From: Alistipes sp.
Lineage (GTDB): Bacteria > Bacteroidota > Bacteroidia > Bacteroidales > Rikenellaceae
DNA: 64,000 nt
Assembly (NCBI GenBank): GCA_017621455.1
Contig: JAGATC010000020.1
Location: forward strand, 248,001 to 312,000
Direction: 5' to 3'
Positions 10,423-18,092 of this stretch are shown here, piece by piece. The translations under genes were made by a program, and so were the position numbers. Position 1 is the stretch's first letter, and each line of letters opens with the position of its first letter. Under the pieces are notes generated by a model. That model saw nothing but the letters and a program-made list of their open reading frames with translations, had not been told where the DNA came from and ran no database searches.

Positions 10423-11241
10423 TTACTTTTGCCACTTCATCGTAAAGCTACGCAAGGGGCGAATTAGAAATCCTGGAAGATACTTGCAAATGGGTATTAG
10501 TAGGCGGAACCACCAGTCGGGTACCACCACGCGGCGACCCTTAAACATGGCATTCAGACCACGTCGGGCACAGCTCTTGGGCGACATCAGGATGCCGGTC
10601 TTTAGGCCGAAGCGCTGCAGGTCCTTAGATAGACCGTAGAGGTCGGTGGCGATACCTGCGGGGCATATAGCCGTTACCGTTACCCCTGTCTTTCGCAGCT
10701 CCTTGGCAAAGGCCTCGGTGAAGCTCTTGACGTAGGCCTTCGAGGCGCTATATAGTGCTAAGCCAGGGAATGGCATCCAGATGGAGTAGGACGACATGTT
10801 GAGGATGCGTCCCTTACCACGCTTTACCATATCCTCGCCATAGAGGCGACACATAGAGGTTAGCGTAAGGTCGTGCAACAGCAGTAGACGCTCGATACGC
10901 TCCAAGGGGGTATTAAGGATGTCGCAGAACGAGAAGATGCCTGCATTGTTTACCACCACGTCGAACTCATAGCCCTCGGCCACGGTGTCGTCGTGAAGCT
11001 GGCGGGCAGCACCCTCGGTTGCGAGGTCCATAACCCTCCCTACACACGTTACGGCGTGCTGCTCGGCAATAATTCTCGCCTCGGTGACGATGGCGGGGTC
11101 GCAGTCGACCATATATACGTTGTAGCCGAGGCATGCTAAGCGCTCGGCATACTGGCGACCGATACCCTTGGCTGAGCCCGTAACCATAGCCCACGCCTTG
11201 CCGCGTGCTACCTCTCCTCGTCGCTTATTACAAAAACACAT
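10423..11241 (-). CDS. SDR-family dehydrogenase, candidate 3-beta-hydroxysteroid dehydrogenase
   Basis: NAD(P)-dependent short-chain dehydrogenase of 272 residues. The cofactor motif is TGSAKGIG (21-28), the NNAG motif is at 98-101, and the catalytic triad is around S150/S151, Y164 and K168 (YSASK). The C-terminal hydrophobic segment (about 240-260) may touch the membrane, as in steroid-active SDRs such as 17-beta-HSD12. Third in the operon after the 5-alpha-reductase homologue and the OYE enzyme, with a 17-base gap. By analogy with the 5AR/5BR/3-beta-HSDH gene set of Odoribacteraceae, a 3-ketosteroid substrate is likely. The family is certain; the substrate is inferred. Confidence 0.9.
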   Translation of the reverse strand: MCFCNKRRGEVARGKAWAMVTGSAKGIGRQYAERLACLGYNVYMVDCDPAIVTEARIIAEQHAVTCVGRVMDLATEGAARQLHDDTVAEGYEFDVVVNNAGIFSFCDILNTPLERIERLLLLHDLTLTSMCRLYGEDMVKRGKGRILNMSSYSIWMPFPGLALYSASKAYVKSFTEAFAKELRKTGVTVTAICPAGIATDLYGLSKDLQRFGLKTGILMSPKSCARRGLNAMFKGRRVVVPDWWFRLLIPICKYLPGFLIRPLRSFTMKWQK

Positions 11242-11258
11242 AACGCTCCTTTCTCGCC

Positions 11259-12506
11259 TTACTTAATTGAGTTAATCTCCTTCCAAAGGCGCTCGGGGAT
11301 ATGCTCCTTGCAGTTGTGGCAGCACTGCATATCGACTGAGTACATGCGTGCCATGCAGTAGTCGCGGTGGTCGCAGCCACTACGCGTGGCCATGTCTCCC
11401 TCCTTAAGCTTATTCACAAATGCTGGGTCGTTAACCAGGGCACGTGCCATCTGCACAAGCTCGAAGCCCTCGTCCAAAACCCTCTCAATGCCCTCACGTG
11501 ACACCAAGCCGCCGACATATACCAGCGGGCCTTTCAGTGCTTGGCGGAACTTCTTAGCATTCTCCAAGAAGTAGCACTCCTCGAAGTCGTACTGCTTGAT
11601 AAGCCACTGGCCAAAGAGCGAAACGACAATCTTCTGCAGCCACTCGTTCCAACCCATGTAGTAACCCATGGTCTTTGTGGGGATACGGCCACGCATCACG
11701 GCCATAGGTGCCTTAGATACGAAGCCCGATGATAGCACAATGCCGTCGACACCAAAGGTCTCAATCTGCTTGGCTATCTCTATAGACTCGGGTACCTGAA
11801 TGCCCGATTTGAAGCCATCCTCCATGTTATGCTTAACAAGTACACCCATGCCACGCTTGCGTGCAGCCTCCATAACCTCCTCTAAGCACATGTTCATAAA
11901 GCGCATGCGATTCTCGAGTGAGCCACCATACTCATCGCGACGATGGTTCGTATAGGGCGACAGGAACTGCGAGATAAGGTAGCCATGGCCTGCGTGCACC
12001 TCCACTGAGTCGAAGCCTGCGTTGTAGGCGGTCTCTACGGCTGTGCCGAAGTCCTTGGCAAACTGCTTTATCTCCGCCTTGCGCATGCGGCGGTGGAACG
12101 TAGGTGAGTATAGATTAAAACCGTTAGATGCCGATACGGGGAAGCTACCTGCCGTAGACCAGTGTGTCATATTACCGCAGTGGCCAAGCTGAATACCCAC
12201 GGCAGCACCCTCGTTGTGTACAGCGTCGGTAAGGTCTCTAAGTGCGGGGACAATCTCGTCGCGTAGCCATAGCTGCTTGTTGAACGAGATACCGCTACGG
12301 TTGATTGAGGCGTAAGCTACAGTGGTCATACCGACACCGCCTTTAGCCACGCTGACATGGTAATCCTTGAGTGCCTGAGTAGGGGCGAAGTCCTTACCCA
12401 TCGACTCGAATGCCGCTGAGCGTATCACACGGTTGCGTAGTGTTACGCTACCAAGCTTGTAGGGGGTAAATAGTTTTGACTCTTCGAGTCTCTTTGTGTT
12501 CTCCAT
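11259..12506 (-). CDS. OYE-family NADH:flavin oxidoreductase, candidate steroid delta4-5-beta-reductase
   Basis: FMN-dependent ene-reductase of 415 residues. The TIM barrel opens with LFTPYKLGSVTLRNRVIRSA. It has QLGHCGN, HAGHGYLISQFLSP and the NHRRDEYGGSLENR signature, plus VYVGGLV and MARALVNDP near the phosphate site. It lacks the second flavin/NAD domain of 2,4-dienoyl-CoA reductases. The cysteine-rich tail has an unusual spacing (C-x5-C-x10-CC-x2-C) where BaiCD-like enzymes carry a 4Fe-4S motif. I start at ATG 12506 (MENTKR), which leaves an 11-base gap to the upstream gene. Context suggests a 3-oxo-delta4-steroid substrate. Confidence 0.92.
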   Translation of the reverse strand: MENTKRLEESKLFTPYKLGSVTLRNRVIRSAAFESMGKDFAPTQALKDYHVSVAKGGVGMTTVAYASINRSGISFNKQLWLRDEIVPALRDLTDAVHNEGAAVGIQLGHCGNMTHWSTAGSFPVSASNGFNLYSPTFHRRMRKAEIKQFAKDFGTAVETAYNAGFDSVEVHAGHGYLISQFLSPYTNHRRDEYGGSLENRMRFMNMCLEEVMEAARKRGMGVLVKHNMEDGFKSGIQVPESIEIAKQIETFGVDGIVLSSGFVSKAPMAVMRGRIPTKTMGYYMGWNEWLQKIVVSLFGQWLIKQYDFEECYFLENAKKFRQALKGPLVYVGGLVSREGIERVLDEGFELVQMARALVNDPAFVNKLKEGDMATRSGCDHRDYCMARMYSVDMQCCHNCKEHIPERLWKEINSIK

Positions 12507-12517
12507 ATTTCTGGAAT

Positions 12518-13300
12518 TTAGTAGATAAACGGAATAATACACTTGCGCTTCAATGAGGTGAACTCCTCGCCAAACTCGCGCTCGTAGCGCTTATACAGCG
12601 ATGCTGAGCGGGGACCGAGGTTGGCAAAGGTCCATAGCGCGAATACCACACCTGCCCACGACCATGAGGCTATGGCGAAGCCTACCCACTCCATAAACTC
12701 ACCAAAGTAGTTGGCACTCGACACATACTTAAACATGCCACCCTTGGGGATGTAGTGTTTGGTGTCGCCAGGCTTACGTAGGTTGCGTATGACGTAGTCG
12801 GAGTGGAGGTTGGTGACAAAGCCAAAGAGCCATACGGCCGTGCCGATGTAGATGAATGGCTGCGAGAACCAACAGTCGTAGTAGCCCATTTCGGGGGCGT
12901 AGTAGAATATCCAGCCACCCTGCATTACGGCATTCAACGTGTTGAACACCATGCCCATAAGCATGATACCTACGGGCATCTTCGAGTTGCCACGTATAAG
13001 CATCGGGAAGATAAACGAGCGTTGGAAGTAGTGTGTTTGGAAGATGATAAATAGCGTGAGTGGTGCCGCCTCAATGGCGTAGTCGGACATCCACCACAGG
13101 ATGAACATCACGATAAACACCGGACACTCCATAAGCACCCATGCCACACGGTTGGGTACGGGGAAGCCAAACTTTGGGTTGAACAGATAGCCGTAACCCG
13201 CATCGACAAAGTATAGTGCGACGAAGACTACAACGGCCACAGCAGCCATCACAACGAGGAAGGTGTTGTAGCTATCAAGCGATATAAACTCTGAAAACAT
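12518..13300 (-). CDS. Steroid 5-alpha-reductase family protein (3-oxo-5-alpha-steroid 4-dehydrogenase)
   Basis: Integral-membrane NADPH-dependent reductase of the delta4 double bond of 3-oxo-steroids, 260 residues with about seven hydrophobic helices. It resembles human SRD5A1/SRD5A2 along its whole length. E58 in VLMECPVF and Y91 in THYFQRSF align with the catalytic pair E57/Y91 of SRD5A2. The cofactor-binding C-terminal half keeps NLHSD (164-168), LRKPGDT (174-180), YIPKGGMF and ANYFGEFMEW (196-205), and ends CIIPFIY. First gene of the operon, behind a TAnnTTTG box embedded in a palindrome. Confidence 0.94.
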   Translation of the reverse strand: MFSEFISLDSYNTFLVVMAAVAVVVFVALYFVDAGYGYLFNPKFGFPVPNRVAWVLMECPVFIVMFILWWMSDYAIEAAPLTLFIIFQTHYFQRSFIFPMLIRGNSKMPVGIMLMGMVFNTLNAVMQGGWIFYYAPEMGYYDCWFSQPFIYIGTAVWLFGFVTNLHSDYVIRNLRKPGDTKHYIPKGGMFKYVSSANYFGEFMEWVGFAIASWSWAGVVFALWTFANLGPRSASLYKRYEREFGEEFTSLKRKCIIPFIY

Positions 13301-15061: not shown

Positions 15062-15787
15062 TCATCGCTTGCTATTCATCTTATACTCGTAGGAGTGGCG
15101 GCCCTCGGCGCGAAAGTCGCTGTGGTAGCGCTCCAATACCTCACGGTAGACCTCCTCGTAGCGCGGAATAAAGAGGTCGTTGCCACGCTCCATATTCTCT
15201 ATAATCTCGCACGCAAGTGCCTCAGTTAGAGCAAGGTCGGTAGAGCCATTGTAGAATGATGTGCCCTTAATTGCACCTGGCGCCACGTGGAGTATGCGGT
15301 TAGCCGTGCCTGCCATCTCAAGCTCCACATTCACACTCTCAATAAATATCTTAAGTGCCGCCTTGGATGCACCATATACCGCAAAAAGGGGTGAGGACAT
15401 GAAGCCTGCGATGCTACCCATAACTGCCACGCGGAAGGGCTCCTTCGAGCTTAGGCGCGGGTAGAAGTGGTGTATGATGCGCATCACGGCCGTGGCATTT
15501 ACAGCCATCGAGGCTGTTATGTGCTCCTCCTCCACCTCGGCGAAGTGTGCGAGGCGGCCAAAGCCTGCGGTGATGATGAGCGTGTCGATGTCGCTAAAGC
15601 CCTCGAAAAGAGCGAAGTCTGAGCCACTTAGGTCAAATTCGGTGAAGCGAAACTGCTCGAGCATGTGCTCCTTGTTGGGTGCTACCTTGTCGACGATGTA
15701 GACCCTCTCGTGGCCTCTATTTAGGGCGAGCTCACGGGCTATGGCGAGGCCTATGCCATTGGCGCCACCTACGACTAATGCACTCAT
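15062..15787 (-). CDS. SDR-family oxidoreductase of the polyol-phosphate cassette
   Basis: Short-chain dehydrogenase of 241 residues. The cofactor motif is GGANGIG (7-13), and the catalytic residues are S125, Y138 and K142 (YGASK). It is the last gene of a three-gene minus-strand operon, overlapping the end of the cytidylyltransferase fusion gene by 4 bases. A likely role is reducing a keto-sugar or keto-sugar-phosphate to the polyol that is then activated with CTP. That is inferred from the neighbours only. Confidence 0.88.
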   Translation of the reverse strand: MSALVVGGANGIGLAIARELALNRGHERVYIVDKVAPNKEHMLEQFRFTEFDLSGSDFALFEGFSDIDTLIITAGFGRLAHFAEVEEEHITASMAVNATAVMRIIHHFYPRLSSKEPFRVAVMGSIAGFMSSPLFAVYGASKAALKIFIESVNVELEMAGTANRILHVAPGAIKGTSFYNGSTDLALTEALACEIIENMERGNDLFIPRYEEVYREVLERYHSDFRAEGRHSYEYKMNSKR

Positions 15788-17130
15788 ATCTCGAAGAAGT
15801 TTTTACGCTCGGCGAACTGCTCCATGACGCCCGCCATGGCGATAGATTGACGCGGTGTGAGGCGTGCTGAGCTGGGGCGGTGGTTGATTATGCACGACAC
15901 AAACTCCTGAATCTCATAGCGTAGGCCTGGCTCATCCCACTTGTAGAAGTACTTCTTGTTGCGGTTCTGGTCCTCGTAGCGCAACTCGAAGTAGTCGGTC
16001 TTCCACCATGGCGAGGGGACATAGACGTAGCCCTGCGTGCCCGAAATCACGAGGTTACCCTCGGTCTTTACCCCCAGTCCAAGCTGGAACGAGGCGATGG
16101 CACTCTTGTAGCATACGATGCCACGAGTGTAGACGTCGACGCCGTTGTCGTTCATGCGGCTGTATATGTTAATATGCTCATAGTCAGTGCCTAATAGCTT
16201 GATGATGGGCAGTAGCGGGTAGGAGCCCATCTCGTAGAGCGAGCCTCCCGACATCTCAGGGTCGAGCTCTCGTTTTAGGTTCTCCTTGCTCCATAGTTTC
16301 GACTCCGAGGCATCGATGCCTACAACGTCGCCTATAAGGCCGCTCTTAACCAGCGATATGAGGTGGGTGAATGCGGGGGAGTATGCTGTCTTATTTGCCT
16401 CCAGGAGCACCAATCCACGCTCCTCGGCCAGCGCATACAGCTCCTTGGCCTCAGCCTTGGCCAACACCATAGGGGTCTCGCATAGCACATGGCGGCCATG
16501 CTCCAAGGCGTACTTCGCCTGCTGGTAGTGCAGGTGGTGGGGCGTGGCGATATAGACGGCATCGGCTCTCTCGACAGCCTCCTCGAGGCTTGCAGCGATG
16601 AGCGAGTGGTCGTTGGTGAGTCGCTTTGCGGCGTTGGTGTCGATGTCGTAGAGCGACGCTACGTGTGCCGCATCCACCTTATCTACCTCGGCATAGAAAC
16701 GCTCGGCAATACGGCCACAACCGATGATGGCAACGTCGACAACAATCTCGCTCTTGGCGCGTAGCATCGACGAAGAGATACCCTCGGTGCGGGGTAGATA
16801 TACCACCTCGCAGAACTCCGTGAGGTAGTCGAACTTACCCTCCCAGTCGGAGCCTATGGCGAAGATGTCGACGTCGTATTTGAGGATGTCGTCAATCTTC
16901 TGACCAACATAGTCCTCGATAATCACCTCGTCGACGATGCCTGTGGCCTTTACTGCCTCCACGCGCTCGAGCACGTTGTTACGCACGTTAAGCTTGCCGC
17001 GCTCGCGGTCGAAGCTATCGTTTGTGACGCCCACGATGAGGTAGTCGCCAAGCTCCTTAGCACGGCGTAAAAGGTTGATGTGACCCTCGTGTAGTAGGTC
17101 GTAGGTGCCGTATGTAATTACCTTCTTCAT
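15784..17130 (-). CDS. Fusion of TagD-like cytidylyltransferase and Gfo/Idh/MocA oxidoreductase
   Basis: Bifunctional protein of 448 residues. Residues 1-127 form a glycerol-3-phosphate-cytidylyltransferase-like domain with HEGH (14-17), VGVTNDSF and ISSS (118-121), the nucleotide-binding signatures of TagD. From about residue 131 a Rossmann dehydrogenase begins, with IIGCGRIA (135-142), ATPHHLHY and the alpha/beta C-terminal domain typical of Gfo/Idh/MocA. The canonical EKP motif reads ETP (218-220), so the usual catalytic lysine is missing. It probably makes a CDP-activated polyol for the LicD-type transferase encoded just upstream (2-base gap). Confidence 0.92.
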   Translation of the reverse strand: MKKVITYGTYDLLHEGHINLLRRAKELGDYLIVGVTNDSFDRERGKLNVRNNVLERVEAVKATGIVDEVIIEDYVGQKIDDILKYDVDIFAIGSDWEGKFDYLTEFCEVVYLPRTEGISSSMLRAKSEIVVDVAIIGCGRIAERFYAEVDKVDAAHVASLYDIDTNAAKRLTNDHSLIAASLEEAVERADAVYIATPHHLHYQQAKYALEHGRHVLCETPMVLAKAEAKELYALAEERGLVLLEANKTAYSPAFTHLISLVKSGLIGDVVGIDASESKLWSKENLKRELDPEMSGGSLYEMGSYPLLPIIKLLGTDYEHINIYSRMNDNGVDVYTRGIVCYKSAIASFQLGLGVKTEGNLVISGTQGYVYVPSPWWKTDYFELRYEDQNRNKKYFYKWDEPGLRYEIQEFVSCIINHRPSSARLTPRQSIAMAGVMEQFAERKNFFEI

Positions 17131-17132
17131 AG

Positions 17133-17966
17133 CTATTTATCGTTGCCGTAAATCTCTTTGATGTACTCCTTGCAGTGGATGCACTTGCGTATCTGCTCGT
17201 CGGAGGGTAGCTCGCGCCAGTTGCCGTAGACGTTCGTAAGGTAGGCATCCATATCCTTGGGTACGGGCCACTCCTCGCCCTCGAAACGTGTGGTCGTAAG
17301 GGGCAGTGTATCCTTCATGTAGAAGGTGTGGCGTGCCCAGCCTGTGCCCAACACATAGTGATACTCGCCGCGCGGGTTTATTAGGCCTATAAGTCTAAGT
17401 ATAGGGTTTACGATGCCGAGCGAGAAGCCCTCGATAAGGCGAATAAGGGGCTTACGTAGCCACGCCCAGCGGATGTACGACGTGGGGTGTTGCAGGTTGT
17501 GGTATATGACCGTGGCGGCACGTGCTGCGAAGTAGTTGGTCTTCTCTATGGCGAAGATGTCGAAGCCTATGCCCGCCCATTTGTAGTAGTTGTAGCGGCG
17601 ACTCGACGACTCAACGCGACCCTCGCGCTTACGGAACTTGCCGAAGAGGTTTGTGTAGTCCGCGTCGCTACGCATCGAGTGGTATACGTACTCCTCGTGG
17701 TTGAGTTCGTGGAGCAGCCTCTCTAAGCGCTTGCAGTCGCGCTTAAGTAGCACTATGTCGAGGTCGTCGTCCCAGGGGATGAATCCCTGGTGACGGGCTG
17801 CGCCGAGCAGCGTTCCCGAGCTCAGCCACCACTGTATGCCGTTGGCATCGCATATATCGGTGACCACGCGGAGCATCTTCATGAGCTCGAGCTGGTCGTG
17901 ACGCAGGCGTGAACCGTCGGGGTTGTAGCGCTGTCGGAGTGCTTCGTTATCGATATTTGTAGCCAT
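17133..17966 (-). CDS. LicD-family phosphotransferase
   Basis: Member of the LicD/fukutin nucleotidyltransferase-like family, which moves choline-phosphate or polyol-phosphate from CDP carriers onto surface glycans. Length is 277 residues. The family motif WWLSSGTLLGAARH (47-59) is followed by the metal-binding WDDDLDIV (65-72). No signal peptide, so it acts in the cytoplasm. First gene of the operon with the cytidylyltransferase fusion and the SDR, which points to polyol-phosphate rather than choline as the transferred group. Confidence 0.92.
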   Translation of the reverse strand: MATNIDNEALRQRYNPDGSRLRHDQLELMKMLRVVTDICDANGIQWWLSSGTLLGAARHQGFIPWDDDLDIVLLKRDCKRLERLLHELNHEEYVYHSMRSDADYTNLFGKFRKREGRVESSSRRYNYYKWAGIGFDIFAIEKTNYFAARAATVIYHNLQHPTSYIRWAWLRKPLIRLIEGFSLGIVNPILRLIGLINPRGEYHYVLGTGWARHTFYMKDTLPLTTTRFEGEEWPVPKDMDAYLTNVYGNWRELPSDEQIRKCIHCKEYIKEIYGNDK

Positions 17967-17985
17967 ACCTTAATATAATATCAGG

Positions 17986-17993
17986 CAAATTTA
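17986..17993 (-). promoter_or_regulatory. Possible -7 box of the licD operon
   Basis: TAAATTTG on the minus strand fits TAnnTTTG, 20 bases upstream of the licD start. The surroundings are AT-rich, so a chance match is possible. Confidence 0.35.
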
Positions 17994-18025
17994 CAAATTT
18001 TTTTCTAAATACTGAGAATAATTTC

Positions 18026-18033
18026 TATCTTTG
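18026..18033 (+). promoter_or_regulatory. -7 promoter box of lnt
   Basis: TATCTTTG matches the consensus, 59 bases upstream of ATG 18093. Confidence 0.6.
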
Positions 18034-18092
18034 TGAGAGCAAAGCTAAATATTAGTCAAATTATCTCTTACGTATAACATAAAAAGAGTATT

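Follow-up and report, generated by a model that had tools for sequence, protein, structure and literature searches.

A cytidylyltransferase-dehydrogenase fusion with an exchangeable partner enzyme: a probable CDP-polyol cassette in gut Bacteroidota

What does a compact three-gene cassette in an Alistipes sp. genome make, and where would its product go? The cassette lies at positions 15,062 to 17,966 of a 64,000-nucleotide stretch of contig JAGATC010000020.1 (hereafter the window). It encodes a LicD-family phosphotransferase, a TagD-like cytidylyltransferase fused to a Gfo/Idh/MocA domain, and a short-chain dehydrogenase/reductase (SDR). The three genes very probably make a small sugar alcohol activated by cytidine triphosphate (CTP) and attach it via its phosphate to a surface glycan, a reading that is well supported by the genomic context. 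What is new here is that the SDR occupies an exchangeable slot beside a conserved fusion.

All three genes are transcribed from the minus strand in the order LicD (17966..17133), fusion (17130..15784, 448 residues) and SDR (15787..15062). LicD and the fusion are separated by 2 bases (17131-17132), and the fusion stop overlaps the SDR start by 4 bases (15784-15787), which likely leads to translational coupling. A match to TAnnTTTG, resembling the Bacteroidales -7 element, is found 27 bases upstream of LicD as a string match only. A preliminary description of this DNA had reported the gene order, gap and overlap; its coordinates are exact, and Pfam and NCBIfam agree on the domains. The features are as follows.

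17133..17966, minus strand: LicD-family phosphotransferase, 277 residues (PF04991, 1.3e-34)
16756..17130, minus strand: TagD-like cytidylyltransferase domain of the fusion, residues 1-125 (PF01467; TIGR01518 below cut-off; structures 1coz/2b7l, 6e-37)
15784..16740, minus strand: Gfo/Idh/MocA domain of the fusion, approximately residues 131-448 (PF01408, PF22725)
15062..15787, minus strand: SDR of the window type (SDR-A), 241 residues (PF00106, 1.6e-25)
17967..18092, no strand: intergenic region between LicD and the divergent gene lnt

A scan of genome contigs identified at least 571 genome stretches encoding a relative of the fusion, from which the 80 most similar were kept (L029-L108). The fusion is in view in 78 of these loci, to which our counts on relatives refer; genes were called as simple longest-frame picks, and the search profiles were built from the first relatives, of the same families. 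The SDR is the very next gene downstream of the fusion in 56 loci, and the identical 4-base overlap recurs in 38. Elsewhere in the same loci an SDR follows another gene in 11 of 716 same-strand neighbour pairs, so the arrangement cannot be attributed to chance. Furthermore, a LicD or a TarF-like transferase (PF04464) is found within seven genes of the fusion in 60 loci.

The 80 kept loci come mostly from gut and rumen and belong to Alistipes, Prevotellaceae, Muribaculaceae, Bacteroidaceae, Fibrobacter and others, including the cultured Hallella seregens and Xylanibacter muris. The Gram-negative gut setting proposed earlier agrees with this spread over Alistipes, Prevotella, Fibrobacter and similar gut or rumen genomes. 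Among the matches listed, the nearest relatives of the fusion are named Alistipes sp. and are 86% identical. The full fusion is present in 14 of 151 genomes of the family (the G109 copy is cut by a contig end) and in 7 of 393 genomes of the order; on these counts it is an accessory trait, and we reject the idea that it is common to the whole genus. Weak TagD matches in frames of 434-476 residues (G081, G090 and G012) are not fusion members, and the frame in G090 reads as HldE.

The slot downstream of the fusion holds more than one kind of enzyme. The window SDR is of the classical type, with a glycine-rich nicotinamide adenine dinucleotide (NAD) motif and the Ser-Tyr-Lys residues; Ser125, Tyr138, Lys142 and the NAD-type Asp33 are invariant in all 34 members of its group. 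A second group, SDR-B (28 members), is about 20% identical to the first. Defining SDR-less loci as those with none within five genes downstream of the fusion, we found that 10 of 17 such loci have an aminotransferase within or beside the slot, compared to 0 of the 61 loci with an SDR (p = 1.5e-8, Fisher). Eight of these aminotransferases are class-V pyridoxal phosphate enzymes of one orthologous group and two are HisC-like class-I enzymes. Another class-V aminotransferase is carried by L055, a locus outside the 78 in which the gene picker missed the fusion frame. Deeper relatives carry class-I aminotransferases (L137 and L138) or an alanine-dehydrogenase-like protein (L135). In L079, L086 and L137, N-acetyltransferases adjoin the aminotransferases, which fits the formation of an amine.

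On a tree of 84 fusions, built with a quick method and only Shimodaira-Hasegawa-like approximate likelihood ratio (SH-aLRT) support, the SDR-A label requires 18 changes and the SDR-B label 15, of which at least 14 and at least 11, respectively, are forced by well-supported branches. For example, two members of the window's own Alistipes clade carry SDR-B. This result suggests that the partner enzyme has been swapped repeatedly around an unchanged fusion, as in a plug-in system that varies the surface decoration. Because the SDR is interchangeable with aminotransferases, the product may not be a simple polyol in every genome. A constant core with interchangeable reductases and transaminases rather points to one common carbonyl compound finished in different ways: the conserved fusion probably produces or supplies a carbonyl compound, which its partner then reduces or aminates.

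Which compound would the fusion activate? Its N-terminal domain matches PF01467 (CTP_transf_like; residues 5-125, 1.7e-18), while PF01128, the IspD-like cytidylyltransferase family, gave no match in the fusion in Pfam. The 125 residues match the Bacillus subtilis TagD structures (1coz, 6e-37), and the best NCBIfam match is TIGR01518, glycerol-3-phosphate cytidylyltransferase (GCT; 5.6e-36). The domain carries the motifs HxGH and RTEGISS, the latter of the catalytic form RTxGxSS, and His14, His17, Arg44, Lys46, Arg56, Arg114, Ser119 and Ser120 are invariant in 82 fusion members.

One explanation would be an ordinary supply of cytidine diphosphate (CDP)-glycerol by TagD to LicD or TarF, in which case the Gfo domain and the SDR would serve some unrelated sugar in that glycan. 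The likeness of the first domain to GCT and the TarF-type transferases nearby fit this explanation. However, the domain reaches 123.4 bits on TIGR01518, short of the equivalog cut-off of 165.4, whereas free-standing TagD proteins in two sister genomes (G104 and G148) pass it at 203-209 bits. In addition, every member counted carries the fused Gfo domain, and in most loci the partner gene for an SDR or aminotransferase overlaps or adjoins the fusion, which ties the Gfo domain and the partner to the CDP compound. We therefore consider the plain supply of CDP-glycerol improbable.

The second domain of the fusion matches PF01408 (residues 132-242, 4.7e-22) and PF22725 (residues 257-369), both over cut-off in Pfam. 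It resembles Gfo/Idh/MocA enzymes of uncharacterised function (3e9m and 3evn) and dihydrodiol dehydrogenase. The best Foldseek fold matches are 3evn, 3e9m, 2o48 and KijD10, with GnnA (7bvj) also among the matches; the AlphaFold2 model of the fusion, of moderate quality (predicted local distance difference test score of 77), was used for fold matching only. GxGxxA is kept in most members and Asp162 in 72 of 84. The domain is a probable NAD-binding oxidoreductase.

We tentatively favour a full relay, in which TagD makes a CDP-polyol, Gfo oxidises it, the SDR reduces it again to another configuration and LicD or TarF transfers it; we rate its chances as just short of even. In the first step the TagD domain would join CTP and a polyol-phosphate, for which glycerol-phosphate or a closely related compound is the most likely candidate. 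A hydroxyl of the CDP compound would then probably be oxidised by the Gfo/Idh/MocA domain, with NAD+ as cofactor, and the SDR coupled to the fusion would reduce the resulting carbonyl to the final, for instance epimerised, CDP-polyol. After these cytoplasmic steps LicD would move the polyol-phosphate to a lipid-linked glycan before export, probably together with a distant TarF-like protein in this genome, the acceptor being lipopolysaccharide, capsule or O-glycan. In relatives the other SDR or an aminotransferase would turn the same carbonyl into a different stereoisomer or an amine. Gene content, overlap, conservation, co-occurrence and partner exchange are observed in the genomes, and we infer the activities, the order of steps, the polyol and the acceptor.

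Such a relay could be redox-neutral because the Gfo domain (GxGxxA, Asp162) and SDR-A (Asp33) each carry NAD-type motifs. It also has a counterpart: GnnA, a Gfo-family 3-dehydrogenase of uridine diphosphate N-acetylglucosamine (UDP-GlcNAc), works with the transaminase GnnB, and such pairs speak for the relay. The cassette shares with GnnA/GnnB the pairing of a Gfo-family enzyme with an aminotransferase, but the substrate there is UDP-GlcNAc, while in the cassette an SDR of either family can take the partner's place, and the Gfo domain forms one protein with a cytidylyltransferase and has no EKP lysine. A more specific version, which we offer as conjecture, is that the fusion makes a CDP-carbonyl (for example CDP-dihydroxyacetone or CDP-glyceraldehyde) that in gut Bacteroidota and Fibrobacter is finished by one of at least four unrelated enzymes, namely two SDR families and two aminotransferase classes, into stereoisomeric CDP-polyols or CDP-aminopolyols for LicD and TarF. 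To our knowledge, no CDP-linked carbonyl intermediate has been described in cell-surface biosynthesis.

Several observations weigh against the relay. The catalytic EKP lysine (position 219) is absent in 83 of 84 members; the site reads E-T-P in the window's fusion and has Thr, Ile, Val or Ser in relatives. The GxGxxA motif is lost in two deep members (L137, 8611-9951, minus strand, and L138, 8484-9830, plus strand). Given these two losses, the Gfo domain may be no dehydrogenase. Moreover, 7 of the 17 SDR-less loci, some of them at contig ends, show neither SDR nor aminotransferase in view, and no glycosyltransferase adjoins the cassette in the window's genome. Finally, if the compound were simply CDP-glycerol, oxidising it and reducing it again would achieve nothing without a change of configuration. 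In L137 and L138 the C-terminal sheet of the Gfo domain remains highly conserved despite the loss of GxGxxA.

The same two losses speak for an alternative in which the partner acts first. In that case, which is possible though doubtful, the SDR or aminotransferase would convert a phospho-ketose such as dihydroxyacetone phosphate to a phospho-polyol or a serinol-phosphate-like amine, which TagD then activates; the Gfo domain would, just as doubtfully, be an appendage that has degenerated, plays a structural part or binds substrate. In favour of this order, the class-I aminotransferases resemble HisC/CobD, and serinol phosphate comes up in two papers on the Campylobacter capsule (PMC11800397, PMC12096443). 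Known CDP-polyol pathways likewise place reduction before cytidylation, as for Bcs1 (going by a title cited in PMC10918830). On the other hand, the NAD-binding glycines and the 45 of 318 Gfo positions that are invariant among the 84 members exceed what is expected of a dead domain. In the same comparison 65 of 125 TagD positions are invariant and no TagD column separates reductase- from aminotransferase-partnered members (in the whole protein one does, column 278 in the Gfo part), which suggests a single common TagD substrate.

We next consider the enzymes that would use the product. LicD scores 120.7 bits on PF04991 (cut-off 22.6), and its sole solved relative found is human FKRP (6kaj), which it matches across the DxD region (E 1e-8), with GTLLGAARHQGFIPWDDDLDI (WDDDLD) aligned to the FKRP stretch. 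Its predicted role is to pass the phospho-polyol of a CDP-activated donor on to a glycan. FKRP, fukutin and bacterial LicD share this type of phosphotransferase with a DxD motif.

Both PF01467 and the LicD family include choline and ethanolamine enzymes, and the cassette could in principle activate phosphocholine, phosphoethanolamine or a similar non-polyol for LicD. Weaker matches point this way: ethanolamine-phosphate cytidylyltransferase (3elb) for the TagD domain and the Mf1 cholinephosphotransferase model for LicD (64 bits, cut-off 225). Nevertheless, the closest models are GCTs, no choline kinase was seen beside the cassette, two oxidoreductases would have no obvious role and the TarF-type partners use polyol donors, which makes a non-polyol very improbable.

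In the window's genome (G000, 2.1 Mb) the cassette lies between purA and lnt-folC-prs. It stands alone, away from any glycan cluster, and we therefore reject its placement within a capsule locus. The genome encodes exactly one PF04464 protein, on contig C12 (235 bits, cut-off 22.1), which scores 153.7 bits on the TarF model NF041712 (below the cut-off of 550) compared to 77 for TarL. Its neighbours (L118 9699-13972; C12 ~110.7-115 kb) are a patatin, an LpxL-like acyltransferase and a family 2 glycosyltransferase (GT2). The TarF-like protein, patatin, acyltransferase and GT2 are 65, 75, 58 and 46% identical, respectively, to genes adjoining the cassette in the relative L019, and so the module is split in two in G000. 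Accordingly, the TarF-like protein is likely a second consumer of the CDP-polyol. Two observations favour a three-carbon skeleton: GCT is the enzyme closest to the TagD domain, and the TarF-like protein fits TarF better than TarL. A glycerol-type polyol is our best guess.

Relatives show closer linkage. In L015 and L019, which have the same chromosomal neighbourhood as the window's cassette, the three genes are accompanied by a further LicD, a Stealth protein, a GT2 and an LpxL-like acyltransferase, and L019 additionally carries the patatin and TarF. In L022 and L024 the cassette lies inside large clusters of sugar-nucleotide enzymes and glycosyltransferases, with a PglC-type sugar transferase in L022 and a flippase-like protein in L024. 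Across the 151 genomes of the family, a full-length or strong TarF is present in 7 of the 14 with the fusion compared to 3 of the 137 others (p = 1e-6). Among the exceptions, the TarF of G104 is found beside a true TagD (over the TIGR01518 cut-off), and that of G019 beside what reads as an IspD-like protein and an epimerase-type reductase, the kind of pair that makes CDP-glucitol in Campylobacter (PMC10918830). As TarF adjoins known or likely CDP-polyol suppliers in these two genomes, the fusion and SDR fill the slot of such suppliers.

Other genes in these genomes also deserve mention. A second LicD in G000 is fused to a GT2 (595 residues; L117 8674-10461, minus strand) beside a LuxE-like protein, and LicD frames of ~595 residues also occur in G038, in G108 and in six further genomes that carry the fusion. 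The Fibrobacter locus L056 has a free-standing TagD-like protein (10450-10842) right after the fusion and aminotransferase, along with three LicD genes, and may make two CDP-alcohol donors together. Uncharacterised nucleotidyltransferases of the NTP_transf_5 family (PF14907) occur in two fusion loci (L075 9522-10613 and L022 15202-16362). Within the window itself, an SDR, an old-yellow-enzyme/BaiCD-like flavin oxidoreductase and a steroid 5-alpha-reductase-like protein lie side by side (10423-13300, minus strand); they resemble the steroid or bile-acid 3-oxo reduction sets of gut Bacteroidales.

How does the cassette relate to known systems? In the CDP-ribitol synthases Bcs1/Acs1 and TarI/TarJ, a reductase makes the polyol-phosphate and CTP activates it, with both activities in one polypeptide in Bcs1. 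These enzymes use another cytidylyltransferase family and an SDR or medium-chain dehydrogenase/reductase as the fused domain, while here a Gfo/Idh/MocA domain is fused and the SDR is a separate gene. The earlier reading, which drew on Bcs1/TarIJ, needs to be amended in that the cytidylyltransferase is of the TagD (PF01467) and not the IspD (PF01128) type, and in that the EKP lysine is missing from the Gfo domain.

The HS5.18 and HS5.17 proteins for CDP-6-D-glucitol of Campylobacter jejuni HS:5 (PMC10918830) similarly combine a cytidylyltransferase with a dedicated oxidoreductase for a Gram-negative surface polysaccharide. They are, however, two polypeptides of PF01128 and PF01370, in contrast to a PF01467 domain fused to Gfo plus a classical SDR, and because the families differ we rejected an identity of the two systems. 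TagD-type activation and TarF/TagF-type transfer are also known from Gram-positive teichoic acids and from GCT with TagF-like capsule polymerases in Actinobacillus and Neisseria (PMC8262930). Plain TagD systems need no extra oxidoreductases, and here LicD is a consumer as well. Thus each part belongs to a known family, and CDP-polyol synthesis with LicD or TarF transfer is of a known kind, but the combination is new. We found no description of the TagD-Gfo fusion, the LicD/Gfo/cytidylyltransferase set or the partner exchange in the open-access papers that we searched.

Finally, Bacteroidota surfaces do carry structures of the predicted type. Porphyromonas gingivalis O-glycans bear phosphodiester-linked phosphoglycerol, for which the accessible part of that study names no transferase (PMC8729774), and Prevotella intermedia O-glycans bear a phosphate-linked C6H12O5 sugar alcohol (PMC10897501). 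With this structural precedent and the nearby transferases and glycan clusters, the general proposal of the preliminary description, a cassette for CDP-polyol synthesis and transfer, stands, except that a simple polyol is not required everywhere. The cassette and its TarF and LicD partners are a concrete candidate source of phosphodiester-linked polyols in gut and rumen Bacteroidota. If confirmed, amino-polyol decorations would be predictable from sequence, and the swapping of finishing enzymes would be a simple route for a commensal to alter the charge and stereochemistry of its surface, variation that bears on immune recognition and phage receptors.

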